A stretch of DNA of 64,000 nt from a bacterium. GTDB lineage: Bacteria > Orphanbacterota > Orphanbacteria > Orphanbacterales > Orphanbacteraceae. The stretch spans positions 84,670 to 148,669 of the forward strand of contig JALGYY010000035.1 of assembly GCA_025782575.1 (NCBI GenBank), in the 5' to 3' direction. Positions 12,909 through 25,174 of this stretch are shown here, one piece after another. How positions within the stretch are numbered: the first letter of the stretch is position 1; each line of letters opens with the position of its first letter. The translations under genes and the position numbers were made by a program. The notes under the pieces are model-generated. The model searched no databases. It saw only the letters and a list, made by a program, of their open reading frames with translations, and was not told the DNA's origin.

Positions 12909-12959
12909 GTTCTCCCTGTATGTCTCAGGCCCGGGCGAATGGAGAATAATCGAACAGCC

Positions 12960-14288
12960 ATGTCATCACTTGTCATTTCAGGCGGCATTGTCATCACTCT
13001 CGGTGAAAAGCCCCGGGTCATTCCGAACGGCGCTGTTCGTATTCGAGATGGCGTTATAGAAGAAGTCGGGCTCGCGACGGAAGTCGGAACAGCGGGAGCG
13101 GAGTTGATCGAAGGATCGGGGCAGGTCATTCTCCCCGGTCTGATAAACGCCCATACTCATCTCTACGGAGCCCTTGTACGAGGACTCCCATGGTCGGGCC
13201 CTCCCCCTACATCGTTCCGTGACATTCTGGAGCGTCTCTGGTGGCGCTGGGACAAGCTGCTCGATGCCGATGCCATTCGTCTGAGCGCCCAGGTCGGTAT
13301 GCTCGAAGCTCTTCGCTCGGGAGTCACTACTCTCATCGATCATCATGCAAGCCCGAACGAGATCGACGGCTCTCTCGATCTCATCGCAGGCGCCGCCACG
13401 AAAGTGGGTATGCGGATCGCCACTGCATACGAGGTTTCGGATCGGGACGGCTCCGAGGTGAGAGATCGGGGCGTGCAGGAAAACATCCGCTTCGCCCGGC
13501 GGGTAAGCAAGGAAAAACCGGGGCTTCTCGGAGCGGCGATCGGTGCACATGCTTCGTTCACACTGTCCGATGAATCGCTCTCGCTGCTGGCGGCCGCGAG
13601 GGAAGAGACCGGAGCTCCGATTCATATCCATATGGACGAGGGGACGGAGGACGGCGAGGCATCACGCGCTGCTTCACACAAGTCCACGGCAAGAAGGCTC
13701 GCCGATCGCGGCATTCTTCGAGAAGAGACGATCCTCGCCCACGCAGTGAATATCGATTCGAGTGACATCCCCCTTCTTGCCGAACGGAGAGCATTCGTAA
13801 GTCATCAGCCTCTTTCCAACGGAAACAACGCTGTCGGGCGCGCGCCGATTCCCGCCATGCTGAGCGCCGGTGTCCGGCTTTGTCTGGGGAGCGACGGCAT
13901 GAGCGGCAGCCTCGGTGTTGAAGCCCTGGCAGCCGGTGCGATCCACCGTATGGCCGAGAAGGACGTGACCATTCCGTTCGACCTCCCCTGTCGACTGGCG
14001 TGGGAAGGAAACGCGCAGCTCGCGGCCACATTGTTCGACCCGCCTCCCGGGGTGCTTCGTCCGGGAGCGGCCGGTGATATCGTACTGATCGACTATGATC
14101 CGCCTACAGAGATCAATGAGTCCAACCTCGCCGGGCACTGGTTGCTCGGCATACTGCACGCGCCCGTGAATCGTGTCATCGTCGCCGGTCAGGTCGTACT
14201 TGACGGTGGACGGTTGACTCGAATGGACACGGCAAGGATACTGGCAGATTCGAGAAAATGTGCGGAAAGCCTCTGGCGCCGCTTCTGA
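12960..14288 (+). CDS. ssnA: Putative aminohydrolase SsnA
   Basis: 442 residues from ATG 12960, which aligns with the known SsnA N-terminus (the frame also has an ATG at 12939; neither has a strong RBS). SsnA hallmarks run throughout: GLINAHTHLYGALVRG, LWWRWDKLLD, SGVTTLIDHHASP, ENIRFARR, GAAIGAHASFT, PIHIHMDEG, LGSDGMSGS and a final SLWRR. The family belongs to the amidohydrolase superfamily and is encoded in selenium- and molybdenum-hydroxylase purine-degradation loci of enteric and anaerobic bacteria, where it is thought to hydrolyse a purine-derived intermediate. Its neighbours YgeY and YgeW here are the same partners. Confidence 0.92.
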   Translation: MSSLVISGGIVITLGEKPRVIPNGAVRIRDGVIEEVGLATEVGTAGAELIEGSGQVILPGLINAHTHLYGALVRGLPWSGPPPTSFRDILERLWWRWDKLLDADAIRLSAQVGMLEALRSGVTTLIDHHASPNEIDGSLDLIAGAATKVGMRIATAYEVSDRDGSEVRDRGVQENIRFARRVSKEKPGLLGAAIGAHASFTLSDESLSLLAAAREETGAPIHIHMDEGTEDGEASRAASHKSTARRLADRGILREETILAHAVNIDSSDIPLLAERRAFVSHQPLSNGNNAVGRAPIPAMLSAGVRLCLGSDGMSGSLGVEALAAGAIHRMAEKDVTIPFDLPCRLAWEGNAQLAATLFDPPPGVLRPGAAGDIVLIDYDPPTEINESNLAGHWLLGILHAPVNRVIVAGQVVLDGGRLTRMDTARILADSRKCAESLWRRF

Positions 14289-14325
14289 CGGAAACGAATT
14301 GAATCGAACATTTCAGGAGGAGAAC

Positions 14326-15531
14326 ATGAAGAACGCGGTCCTCGATCGCGCTGCGAAATACGAAAAAAAGGTCGTCCGCTTTCTGCGGGACATCGTGGCG
14401 ATTCCCTCGATGAGCGGGGAGGAGAAGGAAGTCGTAGAGCGTGTGGGCAACGAGATGACCGATCTGGGTTACGACGAGGTCCGTACGGACAAGCTCGGCA
14501 ATGTAATCGGCAGAATCGGAAAGGGGAAGAAGACTATTCTCTTCGACTCCCATCTCGATACGGTCGACATCGGCGATCCGGACAACTGGAGTCATGATCC
14601 TTTCAAAGGAAAACTCGATTCCCGATTCGTCCATGGCCGGGGAACATCCGATAACAAGGGTGGACTCGCTTCGATGGTATATGGAGGACGCGTACTTCGC
14701 GACCTTGCCCTGGACGGCGGCTACACCATTCTCGTCGTCGGCTCGGTCATGGAAGAGGATTGTGACGGCCTCTGCTACAAATCGATGATCGAAGAAGACA
14801 AGACCAGGCCCGACTTCGTCTGCCTCGGAGAGAGCACTAATCTGCGGATCTACCGGGGCCATCGTGGACGGATGGAGATCAAAGTGACCGTCGGGGGAAA
14901 GTCGTGTCACGCGAGTGCACCCCACCGGGGCGTAAATGCCGTCTACAAAATCACGCCGATCATCCAGGGAATCGAAAAACTGAACCGGCGCCTGAAAAAC
15001 GACAAGGATCTCGGCAAGGGAACGATTGCAGTCACTAAAGTCGACTGCCGGACAGCCTCTTTGAACGCGGTACCCGACCAGGCAGTGATCTATCTTGACC
15101 GGCGGCTCACAAAGGGAGAGTCGAAGAAGAGTGCGGTGGCCGAAGTTCGCAAGATCGTCCAGAGAACCGGCAAGGTGGAAGTGCTTACCTATGAGCGGAA
15201 GAGCTGGAAGGGGCATACATTGCCGATGGAGAAGTACTTCCCCACATGGGTACTCCCCGAAGAGCACGATCTTGTTCAAGCAGGAGCCGATGCCTTTCGC
15301 GAGCTCTTCAGCCGTAGACCCAAAATCGACTTCTGGACATTCTCTACGAACGGTGTTTACACGATGGGAATCGCGGGGATTCCGACTATCGGCTTCGGGC
15401 CGTCCGAAGAAAAATTCGCACACTCTCCCCTGGACCGGTGTCCCATTGATCACCTCGTAAAAGCATCGGCGTTCTATGCGGCACTTCCGACAGCACTCCG
15501 AGGCCGTCTGACTTCAAAAGGAAAGAAATAA
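14326..15531 (+). CDS. ygeY: YgeY family M20 metallopeptidase-like hydrolase
   Basis: 401 residues from ATG 14326, with AGGAGGAG nearby. It is an M20-family di-zinc hydrolase: DSHLDTVD (first metal His/Asp), GRGTSDNKGG (bridging Asp), VMEEDCDGL (catalytic and metal Glu pair) and a dimerisation domain beginning MEIKVTVGGKSCHASAP. The match is to the YgeY subgroup linked to selenium metabolism, which is proposed to open or hydrolyse an amide intermediate during purine breakdown. It lies 37 bp after ssnA and 2 bp before ygeW. Confidence 0.93.
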   Translation: MKNAVLDRAAKYEKKVVRFLRDIVAIPSMSGEEKEVVERVGNEMTDLGYDEVRTDKLGNVIGRIGKGKKTILFDSHLDTVDIGDPDNWSHDPFKGKLDSRFVHGRGTSDNKGGLASMVYGGRVLRDLALDGGYTILVVGSVMEEDCDGLCYKSMIEEDKTRPDFVCLGESTNLRIYRGHRGRMEIKVTVGGKSCHASAPHRGVNAVYKITPIIQGIEKLNRRLKNDKDLGKGTIAVTKVDCRTASLNAVPDQAVIYLDRRLTKGESKKSAVAEVRKIVQRTGKVEVLTYERKSWKGHTLPMEKYFPTWVLPEEHDLVQAGADAFRELFSRRPKIDFWTFSTNGVYTMGIAGIPTIGFGPSEEKFAHSPLDRCPIDHLVKASAFYAALPTALRGRLTSKGKK

Positions 15532-15533
15532 GA

Positions 15534-16529
15534 ATGACATTTCAAGTGCCGGACCATCTCAAGGGCCGTGACTATATTGAGACGAGCGATTGGACAGTAG
15601 AAGAGATCAACACGGCACTCGAAGTTTCGAGCGATCTGAAGCGCCGGTTCAAGAATGGCGAACCGACCAGATGCCTCGTGGACAGAACAATCTTCCTGTT
15701 TTTCTTTGATAAGTCGACCCGTACGAGAAACTCGTTCGAAGCGGGGATCACGCAGCTCGGTGGCCACGCTCATTTTATTGACGCCGAAACGAGTCAGGTA
15801 TCCCACGGCGAGAGCCCACGCGATACGGGGATCATCCTTTCCCGTTACGGCCATGGCATCGCCATTCGCCATGATCTCGTCCCGGGCGAGGGGAACAGCT
15901 ACATGCGTGAAGTGGCGGAACATGCCGACAAACCGGTGATCAACATGCAGTGCGACGTGGATCATCCCTGTCAGACACTGGCCGATCTCATGACGATCCG
16001 TGAGCGTTTCGGGGACGATCTCCAGGGAAAGAAGATCGCCGTCTCCTGGGCCTATGCGCCGTCCTACGCCAAACCGATGTCGGTTCCCCAGGGGTTGATC
16101 ATGCTGATGACCCGTTTCGGCATGGACGTCACCCTCGCCCACCCGCCGGAATTCGAGCTCATGCCTCATACTATGCAGAGAGCGGAAAAGAACGCTTCGG
16201 AATCGGGCGGCCGGTTCAGGGTAGTGAAGACCATGGAAGAGAGCTTCGATGGAGCGCACATCGTGTATCCCAAAAGCTGGGGTTGCCACGATCTCTTTCA
16301 TGAGCCGGAAAAATCGCTCGAGGTCGGGAGGAAGTACACCGACTGGATCTGTGATGAAGAGAAGATGAAGCTCACCGATTCCCAATCGCTCTACATGCAC
16401 TGTCTGCCGGCGGATCGAGGGAGCGAGGTTACCGACGAAGTGATCGACGGTCCCCATTCGATCGTGTTTGACGAGGCGGAAAACCGGCTTCATACGGCCA
16501 AGGCGCTCATGGCGCTCACGATGGAATAA
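15534..16529 (+). CDS. ygeW: Knotted carbamoyltransferase YgeW
   Basis: 331 residues. Carbamoyl-phosphate-binding residues are seen in FFDKSTRTRNSFEAG (STRTR), the HPCQTLADL motif and HCLPADRG. The overall sequence is that of YgeW rather than ornithine carbamoyltransferase; in YgeW-type clusters the enzyme is thought to run in the phosphorolytic direction, cleaving a carbamoylated purine-ring fragment to give carbamoyl phosphate for ATP synthesis. It is shorter than E. coli YgeW (about 396 residues), missing part of the N-terminus. It sits between ygeY and a PLP enzyme, as in purine-catabolic loci. Confidence 0.9.
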   Translation: MTFQVPDHLKGRDYIETSDWTVEEINTALEVSSDLKRRFKNGEPTRCLVDRTIFLFFFDKSTRTRNSFEAGITQLGGHAHFIDAETSQVSHGESPRDTGIILSRYGHGIAIRHDLVPGEGNSYMREVAEHADKPVINMQCDVDHPCQTLADLMTIRERFGDDLQGKKIAVSWAYAPSYAKPMSVPQGLIMLMTRFGMDVTLAHPPEFELMPHTMQRAEKNASESGGRFRVVKTMEESFDGAHIVYPKSWGCHDLFHEPEKSLEVGRKYTDWICDEEKMKLTDSQSLYMHCLPADRGSEVTDEVIDGPHSIVFDEAENRLHTAKALMALTME

Positions 16530-16533
16530 GGGA

Positions 16534-17784
16534 TTGGCAGCGGGGCTCACCGATCGGGTTCTAGGCTACCGCTGCGTCTCCTGCAACCGGGAGCACGGGC
16601 GAAACGCGGCCGGGATGACCTGTGATCATTGCGGCGGCAATCTGGATGTCGTTTATGACTATGGCCGGATCGCCCGCGAATGGGATCGGAACCGGCTGGA
16701 GCGATCGACAGATCGGACGATCTGGGCATACAGGCCTCTGCTTCCCCTGCATGAAGACACACCTGTGCCGGCACTCCCGGTAGGGGGCACACCTCTAGTT
16801 CGATCCGAGGCGCTCGAGAAAGCGATCGGCCTTTCGAAAATCTACCTGAAAGACGATACGCGGAACCCGACCGCGTCATTCAAAGACCGGGCGAGTCTCG
16901 TCGCTTCTCTACGGGCGATCGAGTCCGGAGTTCGCACGATCGCGACCGCTTCGACCGGGAATGCCGCCTCTTCGCTCGCGGGAATGGCGGCCGCCCTGGG
17001 TATGAACGCCATTATCTTCGTGCCGGAGAGCACACCGGAGCCCAAGCTCACCCAGATCCAGATGTATGGTGCGGAACTTTATCGTGTACAAGGGAGTTAC
17101 GACGATGCCTTCGAGCTTTGCTCGAAGTGCTGTAAACGATTCGGGTGGTACAGTCGCTCCACAGGTGTGAACCCGTTCACTGTAGAGGGAAAAAAGACCG
17201 CCGCTTTTGAAATCGCCAGGGAGATGAACTGGAAAGCACCTGACTGGGTGCTCGTGCCGACAGGGGACGGCAATATCCTCGGCGGTGTGGCCAAAGGCTT
17301 TCGTGAACTTCAACTGCTTGGATGGATCGATCGAATTCCCAGGATGGCTGCGGTTCAGGCGGAAGGCTCAGCCGCCATCGTGAATGCCATTCGCTCGGGT
17401 GGTGAGATAGAATCGGTAGCCGCAAAAACGGTGGCGGACTCGATATCGGTCTGCCTGCCTCGGGATGGTGTTCGTGCGGTCCGGGCGGTCAGGGAGACAG
17501 GCGGCGCCGGTGTTTCCGTAACAGACCGGGAAATTCTGGAGGGGGCGAGAGAACTCGCCCGAATGACGGGGATCTTCGCGGAACCATCCGGTGCGGCTCC
17601 CCTCGCCGGGCTCCGGGCACTCCGCCGGGACGGCACAATCAAGGCTGGTGAAACCGTTGTTCTCATGATCACTGGAAACGGGCTGAAAGATACAGACTCC
17701 GCAGCCCGACAGTTCACTCTCCCTGAACCGATTGCTCCGGAATTGGAAGCGGTCGAGCGGGAGATCGCCCGGCGGTCATCATGA
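16534..17784 (+). CDS. thrC: Threonine synthase-like PLP enzyme
   Basis: About 416 residues. The start is hard to fix: the frame is open from 16468 inside ygeW, and TTG 16534, just after the ygeW stop, is the best candidate. An N-terminal zinc ribbon (CVSC and CDHC) is followed by the fold-type II PLP domain with the Schiff-base lysine near residue 117 (NPTASFKDRAS) and STGNAASSLAG for phosphate binding. Family members turn O-phosphohomoserine into threonine. In related purine loci this position is taken by ygeX (2,3-diaminopropionate ammonia-lyase, same PLP fold), so this homologue may have been recruited for that deamination. It overlaps yqeB by 4 bp. Confidence 0.8.
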   Translation: MAAGLTDRVLGYRCVSCNREHGRNAAGMTCDHCGGNLDVVYDYGRIAREWDRNRLERSTDRTIWAYRPLLPLHEDTPVPALPVGGTPLVRSEALEKAIGLSKIYLKDDTRNPTASFKDRASLVASLRAIESGVRTIATASTGNAASSLAGMAAALGMNAIIFVPESTPEPKLTQIQMYGAELYRVQGSYDDAFELCSKCCKRFGWYSRSTGVNPFTVEGKKTAAFEIAREMNWKAPDWVLVPTGDGNILGGVAKGFRELQLLGWIDRIPRMAAVQAEGSAAIVNAIRSGGEIESVAAKTVADSISVCLPRDGVRAVRAVRETGGAGVSVTDREILEGARELARMTGIFAEPSGAAPLAGLRALRRDGTIKAGETVVLMITGNGLKDTDSAARQFTLPEPIAPELEAVEREIARRSS

Positions 17785-18572
17785 CCAGTCCGCGCAGAGT
17801 TCTTATTCTCGGCGCAGGAGAGATGGCGTCAGGAATCGCGGTTCGGCTCCATCGCGCACGCTTCGCGGTATCAATGACAGAGATCAGCGAGCCGCTCGCC
17901 GTCCGCAGGGGGGTGGCTTTCGCCGATGCCGCGTGCGACGGAACATGCCGGGTAGAATCGATCGAAACGCGGCGGGCCGACCATGTCGAAGATGAAGCGC
18001 GGATTCGGGAAGCCGGTGCGATTCCGCTTCTGGTCACCGGCACAATCCCCGAAGCCTGGATCTCCCATTCGGACGTCCTGGTGGACGGCCGGATGATGAA
18101 AGGGGGGCACGGTCTCTCCCGGAATCTGGCGCCCCTCGTCATCGGCATCGGCCCCGGGTTTCACGCAGGCGATGACTGCCACTATGCGATCGAGACCGAG
18201 AGAGGGCACACTCTTGGCCGGGTGATCGAGAGCGGGCCGACCAGACCCAATTCGGGAATACCGGGCATGATCGCCGGGGTGTCCGAAGGGCGGATATTGA
18301 GAGCGACCGCGGACGGCCGTATTGAGGAGAGTCTTGCAATCGGCGCAATCGTGACTCGGGGAGAAGAGGTCGCCCGTACAGGGGGAAAGCCTGTCTTCGC
18401 CGCGATTGACGGCATTCTTCGGGGGGTGATCCGCCCCGGTACCCGCGTGTCAAAGGGACTCAAGATCGGCGATGTCGATCCTCGCATGGATGTGCCGATC
18501 GATCGTGTCTCGGACAAAGCGCTCGCGATCGCCGGAGGTGTGCTGGAAGCAATCATGCGGGGCCCCGCGTGA
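17781..18572 (+). CDS. yqeB: YqeB/EF2563-type selenium-dependent molybdenum hydroxylase system protein
   Basis: 263 residues. The N-terminus is a dinucleotide-binding fold (RVLILGAGEMASGIAVRLHRA), and the rest matches the EF2563 family: MTEISEPLAVRRGVAFADA, VDGRMMKGG, LVIGIGPGFHAGDDCHYAIETERGH is the most diagnostic stretch, ending with KIGDVDPR. Proteins of this family co-occur with selenium-dependent molybdenum hydroxylases and are thought to mature or supply their labile-selenium cofactor. The hydroxylase itself is not in this window. It overlaps the threonine-synthase-like gene upstream and the metal transporter downstream by 4 bp each, so the three are tightly coupled. Confidence 0.93.
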   Translation: MTSPRRVLILGAGEMASGIAVRLHRARFAVSMTEISEPLAVRRGVAFADAACDGTCRVESIETRRADHVEDEARIREAGAIPLLVTGTIPEAWISHSDVLVDGRMMKGGHGLSRNLAPLVIGIGPGFHAGDDCHYAIETERGHTLGRVIESGPTRPNSGIPGMIAGVSEGRILRATADGRIEESLAIGAIVTRGEEVARTGGKPVFAAIDGILRGVIRPGTRVSKGLKIGDVDPRMDVPIDRVSDKALAIAGGVLEAIMRGPA

Positions 18573-20011
18573 GGGGGGCGGGCCTCACGATTTTCCTTTT
18601 GCTCTTGACGGCAATTATGCCCAGGCCCGCCGCTGGCCATCCGATGGGTAATTTCTCCGTCAACCACTACGCTTCCATCCGAATCTGGGATGACACTCTC
18701 TCCATCCGCTATCTGCTCGACTTCGCCGAAATTCCTTCGGTCCCCCTGATCAAACAGATCGATCGAGATGGTGACGAACTGATTACGGCTGAAGAGAGAG
18801 AGGTTTTCGTCGATTCCCTGCTCCCTTACATAGAAAACGGCATTGAACTGAAGGTCGACGGCGTCCCGCTCCCACTGTTGAACCGATTCCGGAACATCCA
18901 CCTGATCGAAGGGGAGGGGGGCCTGTTCACCGTCGTCGTCGGTCTGGATTGGGTCGCCGGTTACGACCCCGTTCGAGCCGAGAACACGGGCCCCCGGCTG
19001 GCAGAGTACACTGATCGGAACTACTTGGATCGGCCGGGCTGGAAGGAGATCAGAATCGATGGGGAGGAAAATGGTACCCGGCTGCTGCGGGCGTCTATCG
19101 ATCCAGGAGATCCGACAGAAGGACTGACCACCTATCCGGAGGAATACCGCGAAAATCCGCCTGACGAAGATCACGCTCTCTTTTACTTCGGGGATGGGGA
19201 AGCGCCCCCATTCCCGGGGACCGGAGAGAAAGGGACGTTCGCAAAGCGAGAAACGAATCGCTACGCCGATCTGCTGACCAGGCGGGGTTCGCCGTTCGCA
19301 CTCGCCGGCGCTCTCGGACTGGCTCTTCTTTTCGGCGCGCTTCATGCAGTCGAACCGGGGCATGGAAAGACACTGGTTGCCGCCTATCTCGTTGGATCGA
19401 AGGGAACGATCGGACAGGCTCTCCTGCTCGGGCTGGTCGTTACGATCACTCATACTCTTTCCGTTTTCCTGCTTGGCCTGGTCACTCTCTTTGCGTCCGA
19501 TCGAATCATGCCGGATCGTCTCTACCCCTATCTCGCCCTTGTCTCGGGAACGCTCGTCCTTGTGATCGGCCTGGTCCTTTTCCGTAGCGCCTTTAGGGCT
19601 CTGAAGAGGGGGACGACCGACCATGGGCATCACCACCATCATGGACGGGGCGGGGATGACCATCACCATCACCACCATTCCGTAACGGACGAGAGCGCCT
19701 CTCTGGGTCAGCTCCTCATCCTGGGTATCACCGGGGGACTCGTTCCCTGCCCCTCCGCCCTTGTCGTTCTTCTGGGAGCGGTCGCCCTGGGGAGAATCGC
19801 GTTCGGCCTGGCGCTCATACTCGCCTTCAGCCTCGGTCTCGCCCTCGTTCTCATGGGGATTGCGGTGCTTTTCGTCGTCGCCCGCCCGCTGGTGGAGCGC
19901 CTGACTATAGGGGAGGGGGCCTTCCGCTGGCTCCGTCTCGCCTCTTCGGGGGCAATCACGATTATCGGGGCGATCATCCTCTATCACGCATTCTTTGCAG
20001 TTTCTTATTAA
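18569..20011 (+). CDS. NicO-family nickel/cobalt transporter with extracytoplasmic domain and His-rich loop
   Basis: 480 residues from GTG 18569. A signal peptide precedes an extracytoplasmic domain (about 25-225) beginning HPMGNFSVNHYASI and including a calcium-binding-like loop (IDRDGDELITAEE). The membrane part (about 230-480) has NicO hallmarks such as GALHAVEPGHGKTLVAAYLVG, HTLSVFLLG and GGLVPCPSALVVLL. A cytoplasmic loop near 350-373 is very rich in His (HHHHH and HHHHHH runs), likely a metal buffer or sensor. NicO/RcnA proteins move Ni2+ or Co2+ and may act as exporters or importers. Its overlap with yqeB links metal traffic to the molybdenum-hydroxylase system. Confidence 0.88.
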   Translation: MRGAGLTIFLLLLTAIMPRPAAGHPMGNFSVNHYASIRIWDDTLSIRYLLDFAEIPSVPLIKQIDRDGDELITAEEREVFVDSLLPYIENGIELKVDGVPLPLLNRFRNIHLIEGEGGLFTVVVGLDWVAGYDPVRAENTGPRLAEYTDRNYLDRPGWKEIRIDGEENGTRLLRASIDPGDPTEGLTTYPEEYRENPPDEDHALFYFGDGEAPPFPGTGEKGTFAKRETNRYADLLTRRGSPFALAGALGLALLFGALHAVEPGHGKTLVAAYLVGSKGTIGQALLLGLVVTITHTLSVFLLGLVTLFASDRIMPDRLYPYLALVSGTLVLVIGLVLFRSAFRALKRGTTDHGHHHHHGRGGDDHHHHHHSVTDESASLGQLLILGITGGLVPCPSALVVLLGAVALGRIAFGLALILAFSLGLALVLMGIAVLFVVARPLVERLTIGEGAFRWLRLASSGAITIIGAIILYHAFFAVSY

Positions 20012-20312: not shown

Positions 20313-21017
20313 ATGAAGAAGGCTATCATTCTGAGCGCCGCCATCTCGCTGATGGTTGCGCCGATGGCACTGGCAGAGACGATCAACGAGGTCTTTGCGA
20401 GCATGACCGGGACGGATTTTGATGAGTACATCGAGATCTGCGCGACTCCCGGCCAGGACATGTCCGATCTCACGTTTATCGTGGTCGAAGGCGATGCCTC
20501 TTCTAACGAAGGTACCGTGGATCGTGTCTGGCCGCTCACCGGCACCTGCCCGCTTGACGGCTTCTACGTCCTTGGCGATGATGCTGTTGCCGAAGTAAAC
20601 CTCAACATCGGTACGAGCAACAGGATCGAGAATGGTACGAACTCGTACTTCCTCGTCCGTGGCACGATGAACGCCGGCCTCGGCGACGATATCGACCTTG
20701 ACGATGACGGCGTGGTCGACTTCCCGGGCGGCCTGGGCTGGACGATTGTCGATGAGCTCGGCGTGAACGACGGCGGCACGGGCGATCTGAACTACGCGAG
20801 CCCTGTGCTCGGCCCGGATGGGTCCTTCGGTCCTGCCGGCCTCGCTCGTTGCTCCGACTGCGATGGCACGTACAACTTCATGTGCTTCGGTATCACGACC
20901 TGTGACGTGGACATTGACGGTTACTCGAACGTCACACCTGGTACGCCGAACGACTGCCCCGGTGGTACCGCCACCGAAGACGCGACCTGGGGTGGAGTCA
21001 AGGCGCTCTTCCGGTAG
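20313..21017 (+). CDS. Secreted protein with TWG-type C-terminal tail
   Basis: 234 residues from ATG 20313, preceded by GGAGGAAAGG; the frame extends back to 20253 without a signal sequence. A clean signal peptide (MKKAIILSAAISLMVAPMALA) is followed by a domain starting ETINEVFASMTGTDFDEYIEI, reminiscent of lamin-tail/endonuclease-like extracellular domains, with a cluster of Cys residues near the C-terminus (RCSDCDGTYNFMCFGITTCD). The protein ends TATEDATWGGVKALFR. This tail recurs on the two cupredoxins at 24270 and 24734 and may be a sorting signal. The function is unknown; the lamin-tail call is tentative. A strong terminator follows. Confidence 0.8.
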   Translation: MKKAIILSAAISLMVAPMALAETINEVFASMTGTDFDEYIEICATPGQDMSDLTFIVVEGDASSNEGTVDRVWPLTGTCPLDGFYVLGDDAVAEVNLNIGTSNRIENGTNSYFLVRGTMNAGLGDDIDLDDDGVVDFPGGLGWTIVDELGVNDGGTGDLNYASPVLGPDGSFGPAGLARCSDCDGTYNFMCFGITTCDVDIDGYSNVTPGTPNDCPGGTATEDATWGGVKALFR

Positions 21018-21049
21018 ATCGGAAGCCCTTGGTGTTTTTGCAAATCGAG

Positions 21050-21081
21050 ACCGGGCTTCCCGCGAGGGAGGCCCGGTTTTT
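21050..21081 (+). terminator. Rho-independent terminator with GNRA loop
   Basis: A 12-bp stem (outer ACCGGGC/GCCCGGT, including one G-T pair) closes a GCGA tetraloop and is followed by TTTTT. It ends the transcript of the secreted-protein gene at 20313-21017. Confidence 0.9.
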
Positions 21082-21099
21082 ATCTTATGAGGTCCCCCT

Positions 21100-22875
21100 G
21101 TGATATCCGGTAGACGCACAGCCCAATCGGCCGCTCTCATTCTTCTGCTCACCCTTGTCCCGGGCGCTATGGCGGGGATCACCTTTGAGCCCTATAATAC
21201 TCAGTCGGGTATCCAGGTGACTACAGACGGCCATATCTTCGGGTTCGGGGCAGCTGTCTCTGACATCGATAACGACGGCGATCTCGACCTCTACGTGACG
21301 GACGGGCCGGGGAGAGCGAACAGGCTGTTTCGAAACGAGGGGGGATTCTTTTTCGCCCAGATTCCGGACGCGGCAGGAGCGGGACATCTGGGAAACAGCA
21401 AGGGGAGCGCGTTCGCCGACTATGACAATGACGGCGACAAGGATCTGTTCGTCGCGAACTATGATGGTGCCTGTGTTCTCTATCGAAACGACGGGGGGAC
21501 CTTCAGCGATGTAAGCGCATTCGCCGGAATTCTGGCCGATACGCTTCGATCGACAGGGGTTTGCTGGGGAGATATCGATAACGACGGCTATCTCGATCTC
21601 TATGTGGGAAGCCGGGGAGAATCAGACGACCAGACCGAGCCGAATCTCTTCTATCATAATCAGGGAGACGGCACGTTCGTCGAATCGGGGGCGGTCTACC
21701 GGCTCGACTCCCATGCGATGACATTCCAACCTGTCTTTTCCGATTATGACCGGGACGGCGATCTCGATCTCTATTGCGCCAGTGATCGATTCACTTTGAA
21801 CCGGCTCTTCCGGAACGACGGAATCATCTTCAGCGACGTCTCCGCCCTGGAAGGGGCCGCCCTATCCATGGACGGCATGGGAAACGCCATTGGTGATGTA
21901 AACGCCGATGGATTCCCCGATTTCTATGTGACCAACACGCCGGGGGGAAACAAGCTGATCGTGAGTCAGCCCGGCGGCGGCTTTCTGGAGATGAGCGATA
22001 GTCTCGGAATCGCCGTGAACGAAATCGGGTGGGGCGCGTTCTTCTTCGATGCCGACCAGGATGGCGATGAAGATCTTCTCGAAGTGAACATGCAGGCTAT
22101 GCCGAATTTTCTGTTTCGGAACGATGGGGCCGGATTGCCCTTTGCCGATGTTTCGCTGGCGGCAGGCATCGGGGGGACCGGGATCAGCTATGGTTGCGCA
22201 TGCGCCGACATGGATAATGACGGCGACCTCGATCTCTACATTTCAAACCGTGGCTCCACATGCGAAGTCTATCGAAACACGACGCCGAACGCCGGCCACT
22301 GGATCCAGATTCTTCCCGAGGGGACGGTCTCCAATCGGGACGGGATCGGGACACGTATCGAAGTCGAGGCGGGGGGGAGCACACAGTTCCGCGAAATCCG
22401 CGCCGGTTCCAGTTACTTATCCCAAATGCAGGGGCGAGCACATTTCGGTCTGGGAGCAGAGACCGGTATCGACCGCCTGACTGTCCGCTGGCCATCGGGA
22501 ATCGTGAATGAGTGGTTCAATATCAGTGCCGATCAGATGGTCACGGTGGTCGAGCAGAGCCCGACAGGGATCAGCGATACCAGTCCGGCCCGTCCGGCGC
22601 CGATCTCACTTCTCGCTTCACCCAACCCTTTCCGCCACTCCGTCACGTTTCACGCTCGCCTGCCCGAATCGACCGGGGCGATATCGGCCGAAATCTATGA
22701 CATAGGCGGACGCCTGGTTCGGCGCCTTTCGATCGACCCCACGCCCCGCAGCCTCCGCCAGATCCGATGGGATCGCCTCGACCGGCAAGGGAATGCGGTA
22801 TCAGCCGGCACTTATTTTCTGCGCCTCCGTGCCGGTCGTCATGTGGTCACGTCAAAAGTGATCGCCATACGCTGA
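21100..22875 (+). CDS. Secreted FG-GAP/VCBS repeat protein with ASPIC-UnbV domain and C-terminal sorting domain
   Basis: 591 residues from GTG 21100 (GAGG upstream). After a signal peptide there are about seven FG-GAP/VCBS repeats with calcium-binding loops such as DIDNDGDLDLYVTDG, DYDNDGDKDLF and DADQDGDEDLL (about 40-400), predicted to fold as an integrin-like propeller. An ASPIC/UnbV domain follows (about 405-485, ENRDGIGTRIEVEAGG-like and VRWPSG). The last 90 residues form a PNPFR-type beta-sandwich (SPNPFRHSVTF, YDIGGRLVRRL, GTYFLRLRAGRHVVTSKVIAIR), the type A sorting-domain architecture. It is likely displayed on or released from the cell surface. Confidence 0.85.
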   Translation: MISGRRTAQSAALILLLTLVPGAMAGITFEPYNTQSGIQVTTDGHIFGFGAAVSDIDNDGDLDLYVTDGPGRANRLFRNEGGFFFAQIPDAAGAGHLGNSKGSAFADYDNDGDKDLFVANYDGACVLYRNDGGTFSDVSAFAGILADTLRSTGVCWGDIDNDGYLDLYVGSRGESDDQTEPNLFYHNQGDGTFVESGAVYRLDSHAMTFQPVFSDYDRDGDLDLYCASDRFTLNRLFRNDGIIFSDVSALEGAALSMDGMGNAIGDVNADGFPDFYVTNTPGGNKLIVSQPGGGFLEMSDSLGIAVNEIGWGAFFFDADQDGDEDLLEVNMQAMPNFLFRNDGAGLPFADVSLAAGIGGTGISYGCACADMDNDGDLDLYISNRGSTCEVYRNTTPNAGHWIQILPEGTVSNRDGIGTRIEVEAGGSTQFREIRAGSSYLSQMQGRAHFGLGAETGIDRLTVRWPSGIVNEWFNISADQMVTVVEQSPTGISDTSPARPAPISLLASPNPFRHSVTFHARLPESTGAISAEIYDIGGRLVRRLSIDPTPRSLRQIRWDRLDRQGNAVSAGTYFLRLRAGRHVVTSKVIAIR

Positions 22876-22905
22876 TCTTCGGCGACCGGCTGGCGATGCG
22901 CGCCG

Positions 22906-22935
22906 TTGACAGAAGCCTAAGCCCCCCGCTACCCT
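22906..22935 (+). promoter_or_regulatory. Possible promoter for the queuosine-precursor transporter gene
   Basis: A consensus TTGACA (22906-22911) is followed 18 bases later by a weak -10, TACCCT. The predicted transcription start would be within a few bases of the ATG at 22947, giving a nearly leaderless transcript. The -10 match is poor, so the site is tentative. Confidence 0.35.
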
Positions 22936-22946
22936 CCCATAACGTT

Positions 22947-23660
22947 ATGAATTCACCCGGCCTCAATCATGAATCCGCACCCGTCGACCTTACACGCCCG
23001 CCAGGCAGACGGGGAACTCTCTTTCTGGCATTGACCGGGATCTTTCTGGGATCGCTCGTCATCGCCAATGTTCTCGTATTCAAACTCTGGTCATTTTTCG
23101 GTATCACATTGATAGCCGGAATCATCCCTTACCCGGTTACGTTTCTCGCTACAGATTTGCTGAGCGAGATTTTTGGCCAGAAGTGGGCGAGCCGTGTGGT
23201 ATGGGCCGGCTTTATCACCAGCTTCTGGGTGTTGATCGTGATCCTCGCCGCGGGCGCGGTGCCGGCCGTACCGATCGGTGATCGAACAGTTGCGGATATC
23301 GATTATCTCTATCAGTCAGTGTTCGGGATGAGTGTGCGGGCGATTTTCGCTTCCATGATCGCTTATCTCGCGGCCCAGCTGGTAGACGTCAAACTGTTCC
23401 ATTTCTGGCGCCGGCTCACCAAGGGAAAGCACCTCTGGCTTCGGAACAACGGCTCCACGATCTTCTCTCAGCTTCTTGATACCGTTCTGGTCGTCTCGAT
23501 CCTCTTTGCGGGCAAGCTCCCCACCCGCGATCTCCTCGCTCTGATCGGTGGCTCGTACCTGTTCAAGCTGGTAATCGCCCTGCTGGACACACCGCTCTTC
23601 TATCTCGGCGTCTGGTTCTGCAGAAAATCGGGAATCGAACCGGCTCCTCTCGATGCGTGA
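22947..23660 (+). CDS. yhhQ: Queuosine precursor transporter (YhhQ/VUT family)
   Basis: 237 residues. ATG 22947 is chosen; the longer frame from 22767 would run through the previous gene. Six or so membrane helices are visible, with the family signature IPYPVTFLATDLLSEIFGQKWA (a P-x-T-F then D-x-x-x-E pattern), a late NNGSTIFSQLLDT and KLVIALLDTPLFYL. Members import preQ0, preQ1 or queuine for tRNA modification. The gene complements the partial deazaguanine pathway (queD, folE) at the left of the window and hints that the organism both makes and salvages queuosine precursors. Confidence 0.9.
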   Translation: MNSPGLNHESAPVDLTRPPGRRGTLFLALTGIFLGSLVIANVLVFKLWSFFGITLIAGIIPYPVTFLATDLLSEIFGQKWASRVVWAGFITSFWVLIVILAAGAVPAVPIGDRTVADIDYLYQSVFGMSVRAIFASMIAYLAAQLVDVKLFHFWRRLTKGKHLWLRNNGSTIFSQLLDTVLVVSILFAGKLPTRDLLALIGGSYLFKLVIALLDTPLFYLGVWFCRKSGIEPAPLDA

Positions 23661-23677
23661 GGAGGCTGCGGAAGAGG

Positions 23678-24085
23678 TTACTTCTTCAACGTGCAGGCGA
23701 TAATGGCGGGCATCGCTTTCGGTGGCCGGATGACCTGGACGATCTCGGCAGTCTCCCCATCATACTGCACCGAAGCGATCTGGTAGCGCTCCGGATCGAT
23801 CTCGTCGTCCTCTCCCAGGTAGCGTAGCAACGCCGTCCGGAGGGCGTCCCACTCGAGAAACAGCAGGAACTGATCATCCGGATCGCTGATATTCAACGCA
23901 GCCAGGACTTCGTGGAGGCCGAGTTCCACGATTTTGCGGATCTGTTTGCCCCGGACGATGGTCAGATAGGACGCCTCACCGCCGATTGACTTCGAGCAGG
24001 TCATCTTATTATAATCGAACGAAAGGAGCCGGTCAGCCCCGTCGACCCGGACTTTGATTCGTGATGAGCTGTCTTCACATGGCAT
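23678..24085 (-). CDS. NifU/IscU-like small protein, degenerate
   Basis: 135 residues on the minus strand, with GAGG five bases before the ATG. The middle (FDYNKMTCSKSIGGEASYLT, then VRGKQIRKIVELGLHEVLAAL and LFLEWDALRTALLRYLG) follows the order of the IscU/NifU scaffold: strand, metal-binding Cys, GK-containing helix, and the helix of the AL.A repeat. Only the first of the three ligand Cys is kept, and the usual HCS is replaced by FLE. It is therefore a probable relative that may bind a different ligand. I have no specific function for it. It diverges from the cupredoxin operon, sharing the intergenic region. Confidence 0.6.
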   Translation of the reverse strand: MPCEDSSSRIKVRVDGADRLLSFDYNKMTCSKSIGGEASYLTIVRGKQIRKIVELGLHEVLAALNISDPDDQFLLFLEWDALRTALLRYLGEDDEIDPERYQIASVQYDGETAEIVQVIRPPKAMPAIIACTLKK

Positions 24086-24118
24086 GATTGCCTCAAAAGC
24101 CTCCCTATAATTGAACTT

Positions 24119-24147
24119 ATTGTAAACTTTGTGCGCTTACACTTCAA
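24119..24147 (-). promoter_or_regulatory. Promoter for the NifU-like gene (divergent)
   Basis: On the minus strand TTGAAG (24142-24147) and TACAAT (24119-24124) are spaced 17 bases apart. The transcript would start near 24112, about 27 bases before the ATG at 24085. It lies back to back with the promoter at 24153-24182. Confidence 0.55.
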
Positions 24148-24152
24148 TCTGC

Positions 24153-24182
24153 TTGACATTTTGCGACGGAATCCCATATAAT
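24153..24182 (+). promoter_or_regulatory. Consensus sigma-70 promoter for the cupredoxin operon
   Basis: Perfect TTGACA (24153-24158) and perfect TATAAT (24177-24182) hexamers with an 18-base spacer make this the strongest promoter in the window. Transcription would begin near 24189, leaving an 80-base leader before the first cupredoxin. It overlaps closely with the divergent promoter at 24119-24147. Confidence 0.8.
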
Positions 24183-24269
24183 GCAGTCACTTGGTGGAAA
24201 TGTACCCATCGAGAGAATTTGGGCGAATCCAGCATTACCCGGCATTCAAATTATATTAAGGGGCCACAT

Positions 24270-24683
24270 ATGAACAGATTGTTATGGGTGATCCTACTGA
24301 CAGCATATCTGATCCCTCCCCAGGCCGCCGCAGCGGATACTGTCCTGGTGATGCAGGTAGGGCTCACATTCCAGCCGCAGAACGTGACTATTCAGGTGGG
24401 CGATACGGTTCAGTGGGTCTGGAATGACGGAAGCCACACGGTAACGAGCGGCTCGGGGCCGTTCGATCCTAACGCCGGCTCGCTTTTCAATATGATGTTT
24501 GATGTGACCCACCAGTCGCCATCCTACACCTTTAATGGTAGCCCGGGCCTCTATCCTTACCATTGTATTCCTCACTTCTTCCTCGGTATGACCGCATCGG
24601 TAACCGTAGAAGAGGGCGGGACGACTGCTACGGAGAGTACGACCTGGGGAGATATAAAGAAACTGTTCTCTCTGGACCATTAG
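24270..24683 (+). CDS. Secreted type I copper protein (plastocyanin-like) with TWG-type tail
   Basis: 137 residues from ATG 24270 (AAGGGG upstream). After a signal peptide ending AAAAD there is a compact cupredoxin: VTIQVGDTVQWVWNDGSHTV carries the first His ligand, and YHCIPHFFLGM supplies Cys, His and Met with the plastocyanin spacing C-x2-H-x4-M. All four type I copper ligands are present, so it should be an extracytoplasmic electron carrier. The protein ends in TATESTTWGDIKKLFSLDH, nearly the same tail as the protein at 20313. A second cupredoxin follows 50 bp downstream. Confidence 0.9.
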   Translation: MNRLLWVILLTAYLIPPQAAAADTVLVMQVGLTFQPQNVTIQVGDTVQWVWNDGSHTVTSGSGPFDPNAGSLFNMMFDVTHQSPSYTFNGSPGLYPYHCIPHFFLGMTASVTVEEGGTTATESTTWGDIKKLFSLDH

Positions 24684-24733
24684 ACCACCAAGGGGTCGAA
24701 TCACCGTTTCGTCTCGAGAAGGGGACCCGGTCT

Positions 24734-25174
24734 ATGAAAGGCATTATGCGCAGCTATATCCTGGGTCTCCTCATCTGCTGTGGACTCGGGCTTTCGGCCG
24801 GCACCGCAGGCGCTACGACTTACCTGGTCAACGCATCCGGGATTTCGTTCAGTCCTGCCGATATTGTGATCGCCCTGGGTGACACCGTTCACTGGCATGT
24901 CGATTTCGGTAATCACACGGTCACCTCGGGATTCGACTCAACTGAAGCGAATTGGGGCGCACTTTTCGATTCCCCTCTTACTACCACGAACAAGGACTTC
25001 TTCTACACCTTTGATGATACATCCGGCGTCTATCCATACTTCTGCCTAACTCATCTGGTGGCATTCGGCATGACTGGAACGGTAACAGTCGAAGAAGACA
25101 CACCAACCTCCATAAAACTCGGCCGGTTCGTGAATACGGACTGGGGCCGACTGAAAGAGCTCTTCCGACGATAG
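24734..25174 (+). CDS. Second secreted cupredoxin with TWG-type tail
   Basis: 146 residues from ATG 24734; the frame extends back into the previous gene. Signal peptide, then a plastocyanin-like domain: IVIALGDTVHWHVDFGNHTV holds one His ligand, and YFCLTHLVAFGM holds Cys, His and Met, with one more residue than usual between His and Met (H-x5-M). A loop change of this kind would tune the copper site. The protein ends NTDWGRLKELFRR, the third copy of the tail. It is co-transcribed with the first cupredoxin and ends just before a terminator. Confidence 0.88.
   Translation: MKGIMRSYILGLLICCGLGLSAGTAGATTYLVNASGISFSPADIVIALGDTVHWHVDFGNHTVTSGFDSTEANWGALFDSPLTTTNKDFFYTFDDTSGVYPYFCLTHLVAFGMTGTVTVEEDTPTSIKLGRFVNTDWGRLKELFRR

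Follow-up and report, generated by a model that had tools for sequence, protein, structure and literature searches.

Three genes for putatively exported proteins in a 64,000-nucleotide stretch of an Orphanbacterota genome (GCA_025782575.1, contig JALGYY010000035.1, positions 84,670 to 148,669; hereafter the window) end in nearly the same short peptide, WGx[VI]Kx[LM][FY]R. Selection acts on this tail at the protein level; it stands at the very C-terminus and is shared by many exported proteins with unrelated bodies. We regard it as somewhat probable that, in bacteria bearing the type IX secretion system (T9SS), it serves as a short and portable C-terminal label by which Sec-exported proteins are targeted or docked; co-occurrence points to the T9SS route, and the sorting role of the tail is putative.

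The three genes and their tails had been singled out in an earlier note on this DNA, and all of them were found where that note placed them (Table 1). Searched as a DNA pattern, W-G-x-x-K-x-L-[FY] has three matches in the window, all at these tails, and none in 100 dinucleotide-preserving shuffles of the window. The bodies had been described as unrelated, which holds for the first protein relative to the cupredoxins. However, the cupredoxins form a homologous pair, so that the three bodies represent two families. The first protein matches no Pfam or NCBIfam family, and a relative in G002 (locus L057) likewise ends in the tag.

The tag recurs throughout the window's genome (G000, 4.88 Mb, with the window on its contig 13), where WGxxKxL[FY] has 43 matches and its reversed counterpart none. 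The stop codon lies 0–4 residues past LF in 42 of these, mostly after a single R, and the consensus reads T[AP][TV]E-x-[ST][ST]-W-G-x-[VI]-K-x-[LM]-[FY]-R-stop. The W, G, K and F are invariant and the final R nearly so, whereas the codons for G, K, L, F and R differ freely between copies, showing that the constraint acts on the protein. Using a crude hydrophobicity heuristic, a signal-peptide-like N-terminus was recognized in 35 of the 39 tagged proteins whose start could be read, compared with 18 of 53 window open reading frames (ORFs) judged by the same rule. Among the tagged proteins lacking such a start, one is truncated where the sequence examined ends, and L034 and L038 both lie in broken reading frames; apart from these exceptions, one tagged gene of the genome carries an in-frame stop. 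The test that had been proposed to refute the idea of a C-terminal signal thus left it standing, since the motif is overwhelmingly C-terminal and sits on signal-peptide proteins with unrelated bodies. This combination of position, signal-peptide enrichment and unrelated bodies supports the tail as a candidate sorting or anchoring signal. One of the tag matches, AEESSWGGLKSFFK (L032, contig 26, 51751-51774), has no intact gene upstream and is a possible pseudogene remnant.

Once their ends are trimmed, the tagged proteins encoded by G000 group into 20 clusters without detectable mutual similarity, 15 of which are singletons. Pfam recognizes cupredoxin (2), SnoaL/DUF4440 (2), lamin-tail (1) and pullulanase X25 (1) domains, and the majority of the bodies are familyless. 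One tagged protein contains a choice-of-anchor X domain (NCBIfam, above cut-off), a name referring to bodies that are found with interchangeable C-terminal anchors; another has a weak NCBIfam match to ExeM (exonuc_ExeM-GG, a family model with a GG label). The largest cluster, of 14 proteins, is predicted by AlphaFold to adopt a cohesin-like beta-sandwich fold, from which the tail stands off as a detached helix with a pLDDT (predicted local distance difference test) of about 50. Five tagged cohesin-fold paralogues lie in tandem on contig 21 (223.7-226.2 kb, L023-L027), one of them with an in-frame stop. On contig 24 (~25-29 kb, L028), two tandem SnoaL/DUF4440 paralogues with lipoprotein-like N-termini each end in an intact tag and also hold internal tag relics, STEESSWTAVKMLFRW and ATEEFTWTAVKSVFRW, following a domain duplication. 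Threonine replaces the otherwise invariant glycine in each relic. The change may fit a constraint that acts at the C-terminus only; this evidence is weak because the change was probably a single event.

The distribution of the tag was then surveyed in 386 genomes of diverse bacteria, using a pattern that includes the stop codon and is strict enough to miss variants. Matches were found in 49 of the 386, whereas a reversed control gave about eight matches in all of these genomes together. All seven genomes of the window's GTDB family (f1), G000 among them, have 10 to 42 copies, and every sampled genome of seven other families (f26, f67, f70, f135, f159, f174 and f215) has 13 to 57, so that at least eight GTDB families have 10 or more tagged proteins per genome. 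In the seven other families, the tail reads P[VA]E-x-[ST][ST]-W-G-x-[VI]-K-A-[LM]-Y-R-stop, and the tagged proteins sampled there mostly have signal peptides and varied bodies. Many other lineages have exactly one match, TWGSIKA[ML]FR-stop, which ends a small exported protein containing a single fibronectin III-like (Fn3) domain.

The tag is confined almost entirely to SprA-positive genomes. The SprA_N domain was detected in 48 of the 49 tagged genomes and in 56 of the 337 untagged ones (Fisher 9e-31), and counted by GTDB family the figures are 30/30 versus 40/228 (Fisher 4e-20), neither value being corrected for kinship. The sole exception, G108, has a SprA-positive family-mate, and its match lies at a contig end. 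In the 35 tagged genomes tested further, the full SprA model was positive in all, PorV-family carriers were present in all (6-34 copies) and type A T9SS C-terminal domains (CTDs) were abundant in all. Thus, SprA and a PorV-type carrier, the pair expected in genomes with type A CTDs, accompany the tag in 48/49 and 35/35 genomes, respectively. A pairing of PorV genes with tag genes was considered and rejected, as the few pairs seen do not, on rough counting, exceed what so many PorV copies would produce. In G000 itself, the SprA homologue lies on contig 21 (304609-308952, a 2037-residue frame). The genome also contains matches to the PorV family (13) and to type A CTDs (at least 83); no PorD was detectable in it. 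Within the window, a protein with a type A-like CTD adjoins the first tagged gene (Table 1), which shows a predicted conventional T9SS signal in use beside the tag.

The single-copy Fn3-tag gene was followed in a second sample, consisting of 148 genomes of the phylum of G339, which is probably Bacteroidota judging from its T9SS content. Of these genomes, 53 match, with one copy each except for two in G453, and all 19 loci read belong to the same Fn3-tag family, including a subgroup ending in WGMIKE[ML]F[RK]. The gene is found in G007, G057, G330, G300 and about 60 further genomes (L092-L102, L186-L191, L194-L206), ending in TWGSIKA[ML]F[RQ] or WGMIKEMFR. Among 30 Fn3-tag proteins, the mean pairwise identity is 83% over the nine tail residues versus 27% in the body, and the tail is more conserved than the body in all 435 pairs, suggesting that it is under selection. 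AlphaFold models show a confident Fn3-type sandwich with a tail helix of low confidence, and Foldseek matches the protein to Fn3-type and other beta-sandwich domains. In the same genomes, large T9SS cargo ORFs also contain this Fn3 domain immediately before a type A CTD, e.g., at G161:C2:751977-752237, followed by a CTD at 752328-752555. As the domain precedes the CTD in cargo and the tag in the tagged protein, the tag occupies the place of the CTD. The Fn3-tag protein is a candidate for an unrecognized T9SS component.

PorD (DUF4835, PF16119) is an established periplasmic component of the T9SS that binds SprE/PorW (PMC8754138, PMC10994853). In the first sample, it was detected in 11 of 11 single-copy genomes versus 0 of 54 others, tag-rich genomes included; in the second, it was detected in 53 of 53 tagged versus 64 of 95 untagged genomes (Fisher 2.5e-7). 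In 4 of 64 genomes, no more than 1.5 kb separates the Fn3-tag gene from porD, and in 10 of 64 the distance is at most 12 kb; the numbers of genomes expected under uniform placement are 0.07 and 0.46, respectively. PorD thus co-occurs with the Fn3-tag gene and is often encoded near it, whereas its protein family is distinct from the tagged proteins. We know of no interaction between PorD and the tag. In the first sample, the tagged genomes examined for both features carry the tag only on the single Fn3 protein if they have PorD, and on other bodies if they lack it. The PorD of tag-rich lineages could, however, have diverged beyond detection.

Like the type A CTD of the T9SS (TIGR04183/PF18962), the tag is a C-terminal element on Sec-exported proteins of T9SS-positive bacteria, and both occur in the same genomes. 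However, the type A CTD is an Ig-like beta sandwich of 70-80 residues, whereas the tag spans about 9-16 residues, shows no similarity to it and is modelled by AlphaFold as a short detached helix of roughly 9-11 residues, with low confidence, rather than as an Ig-like sandwich. Type B (TIGR04131) and type C (ChiA-type) CTDs are known alternatives to the type A signal (PMC10202324). They too are C-terminal T9SS signals, but both are about 100 residues long. In 38 tagged proteins, no match to a type A, B or C CTD (the latter two represented by TIGR04131/PF13585 and ChiA-type models) was found at thresholds of E 0.1 for NCBIfam and 0.01 for Pfam. The earlier description of the signal as undescribed has held so far, as no Pfam or NCBIfam model matches the tails and neither the motif nor the tail strings tested were found in searches of the open-access literature in PMC.

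If the tag is a T9SS-related signal, a tagged protein would first be exported to the periplasm by Sec. Its free C-terminal peptide, disordered or folded as a short helix, would then be bound by a T9SS component or by a protein attached to one, for which SprA, a PorV-like carrier or the SprE–PorD module are candidates. Once bound, the protein would either be delivered to the cell surface or outer membrane or be retained at the translocon, with the tag doing the job that a CTD of 70-100 residues does in conventional cargo. Where PorD is present, a conserved T9SS site would be used by essentially a single dedicated partner, the Fn3-TWGSIKAMFR protein, whereas in PorD-less lineages such as that of the window, other exported proteins, often dozens, would carry the tail directly. 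We put forward, tentatively and as a serious possibility, the narrower proposal that the roughly nine-residue peptide WGx[VI]Kx[LM][FY]R is a minimal T9SS signal read by a conserved translocon site, ancestral in T9SS-bearing bacteria, retained on one dedicated Fn3 partner in the presence of PorD and spread to dozens of cargo proteins in its absence.

Several observations weigh against a T9SS-linked tag. More than half of the T9SS-positive genomes (56/104) lack the tag, so it is not essential for the T9SS. The association with SprA and PorD ignores phylogeny, and the T9SS-bearing lineages may be one superphylum sharing an ancestral tag. The PorD comparison in the second phylum is affected similarly, as the PorD-negative genomes listed there come nearly all from one family, and the proximity to porD falls partly in a cluster that also holds housekeeping genes. 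No tag-binding protein was identified, and the tagged genes of G000 have no recurrent neighbour except other tagged genes and one unidentified four-member cluster. Moreover, two tagged proteins of G000 are lipoprotein-like and look as if they were already membrane-anchored, so that the tag would be no simple anchor there.

In an alternative that retains a specific receptor, the tail would dock proteins onto a scaffold in the periplasm or on the surface rather than being part of an export route; many small binding proteins would be gathered on one receptor, and the T9SS would co-occur by ancestry. A specific pocket for the peptide is suggested by its fixed C-terminal position and by the invariance of W, G, K and F; the bodies are mostly small beta-sandwich or binding modules (cohesin-fold, cupredoxin, lamin-tail, SnoaL-like), with the cohesin fold as the largest family, and the two lipoprotein-like proteins are also in keeping with this alternative. 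However, a scaffold does not account for the presence of PorD with the Fn3-tag protein in every genome tested, for the genes lying near each other above expectation or for the architectural position that the tag shares with the CTD, and no receptor was found; we consider scaffold docking rather unlikely. It is improbable that the tail is instead a membrane anchor, in which a short, amphipathic helix of basic character would insert into the outer membrane or attach to lipopolysaccharide without the help of a receptor. Its W, V/I, L and F alternate with K and R, and the AlphaFold models contain a short, detached helix of low confidence, which agrees in part with the amphipathic helix envisaged in the earlier note. 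The hydrophobic moments, however, are unexceptional, only modestly above those of same-residue shuffles (15-28% of which are as high), and G, K and the terminal position are far more invariant than an anchor needs. The invariant W, G, K and F, the near-invariant R and the fixed distance to the end are more readily explained by a binding pocket than by simple insertion into a membrane.

The same note had looked to a co-occurring sorting enzyme. A dedicated sortase-like transpeptidase (of exosortase, sortase or rhombosortase type) that recognizes and cuts the tail would be in line with the usual hallmark of such systems, C-terminal tags on varied exported proteins, and with the choice-of-anchor body and the weakly ExeM-like body. 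Indeed, the signals of PEP-CTERM/exosortase, GlyGly-CTERM/rhombosortase and LPXTG/sortase are, like the tag, portable, shared by many unrelated exported proteins and interchangeable across homologous bodies. These signals, however, consist of a motif, a transmembrane helix and a basic cluster, whereas the tagged proteins end 0-4 residues past LF, with neither a transmembrane segment nor a basic cluster after the motif, and thus lack the PEP-CTERM layout. The cognate motifs and transmembrane segments of sortase and rhombosortase substrates are likewise absent from them, the enzymes themselves not having been searched for. Exosortase (PF09721) is present in 8 of 18 tag-rich genomes but was found in none of six genomes of the window's family, in none of 11 single-copy genomes and not in G031, G140 or G277, which rules it out as a general partner; the T9SS translocon co-occurs instead. 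A transpeptidase is accordingly very unlikely. Motifs with aromatic residues at the extreme C-terminus are read by periplasmic proteases and chaperones, and this general precedent would allow a quality-control element, degron-like or akin to the signal of outer-membrane proteins. Yet the domains that carry the tag are folded, soluble and diverse, the tag is nearly restricted to bacteria with a T9SS, and its conserved T-x-T-E linker and its K are not known as features of such signals, making this reading still more improbable. The probability that the tails are alike by chance or through whole-protein homology is negligible: the homology of the two window cupredoxins speaks for it, but it is ruled out by the 43 versus 0 matches, the roughly 20 unrelated body clusters and the excess of tail over body conservation in every Fn3-tag pair.

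If the preferred reading of a T9SS-linked tag is correct, a peptide-sized C-terminal address label, common to several lineages known mostly from genome sequences, would join the known sorting signals of exported bacterial proteins, and hundreds of familyless proteins would be flagged as one functional class. The Fn3-TWGSIKAMFR protein, which none of the family libraries searched recognizes, would be a new candidate partner of the T9SS, conserved in part of one phylum (probably Bacteroidota). A nine-residue signal would be easily tested by fusion and mutation, and could serve as a simple handle for surface display.

Table 1. Tagged genes, their tails and the adjoining CTD protein in the window (window coordinates)
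Feature	Position	Strand	Remarks
Tagged exported protein 1, 234 amino acids	20313..21017	+	Signal-peptide-like N-terminus (~residues 1-21, by eye)
C-terminal tag TATEDATWGGVKALFR	20967..21014	+	Stop codon directly after
FG-GAP/ASPIC protein with T9SS type A-like CTD	21100..22875	+	CTD at ~residues 507-588, TIGR04183 27.7 bits (cut-off 23)
Tagged cupredoxin 1, 137 amino acids	24270..24683	+	PF00127, E 5.6e-11; signal-peptide-like N-terminus
C-terminal tag TATESTTWGDIKKLFSLDH	24624..24680	+	Extends 3 residues past the consensus end
Tagged cupredoxin 2, 146 amino acids	24734..25174	+	PF00127, E 2.6e-6; signal-peptide-like N-terminus; homologous to cupredoxin 1
C-terminal tag TDWGRLKELFRR	25136..25171	+	Gene 24734-25174 ends in NTDWGRLKELFRR and the stop

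Elsewhere in the window, positions 12939-18572 hold a cluster resembling a selenium/purine-type set, with SsnA, YgeY, a YgeW-like carbamoyltransferase, a threonine synthase-like enzyme and YqeB. This SsnA/YgeY-like cluster is followed at 18569-20011 by a His-rich transporter of the nickel/cobalt efflux type.

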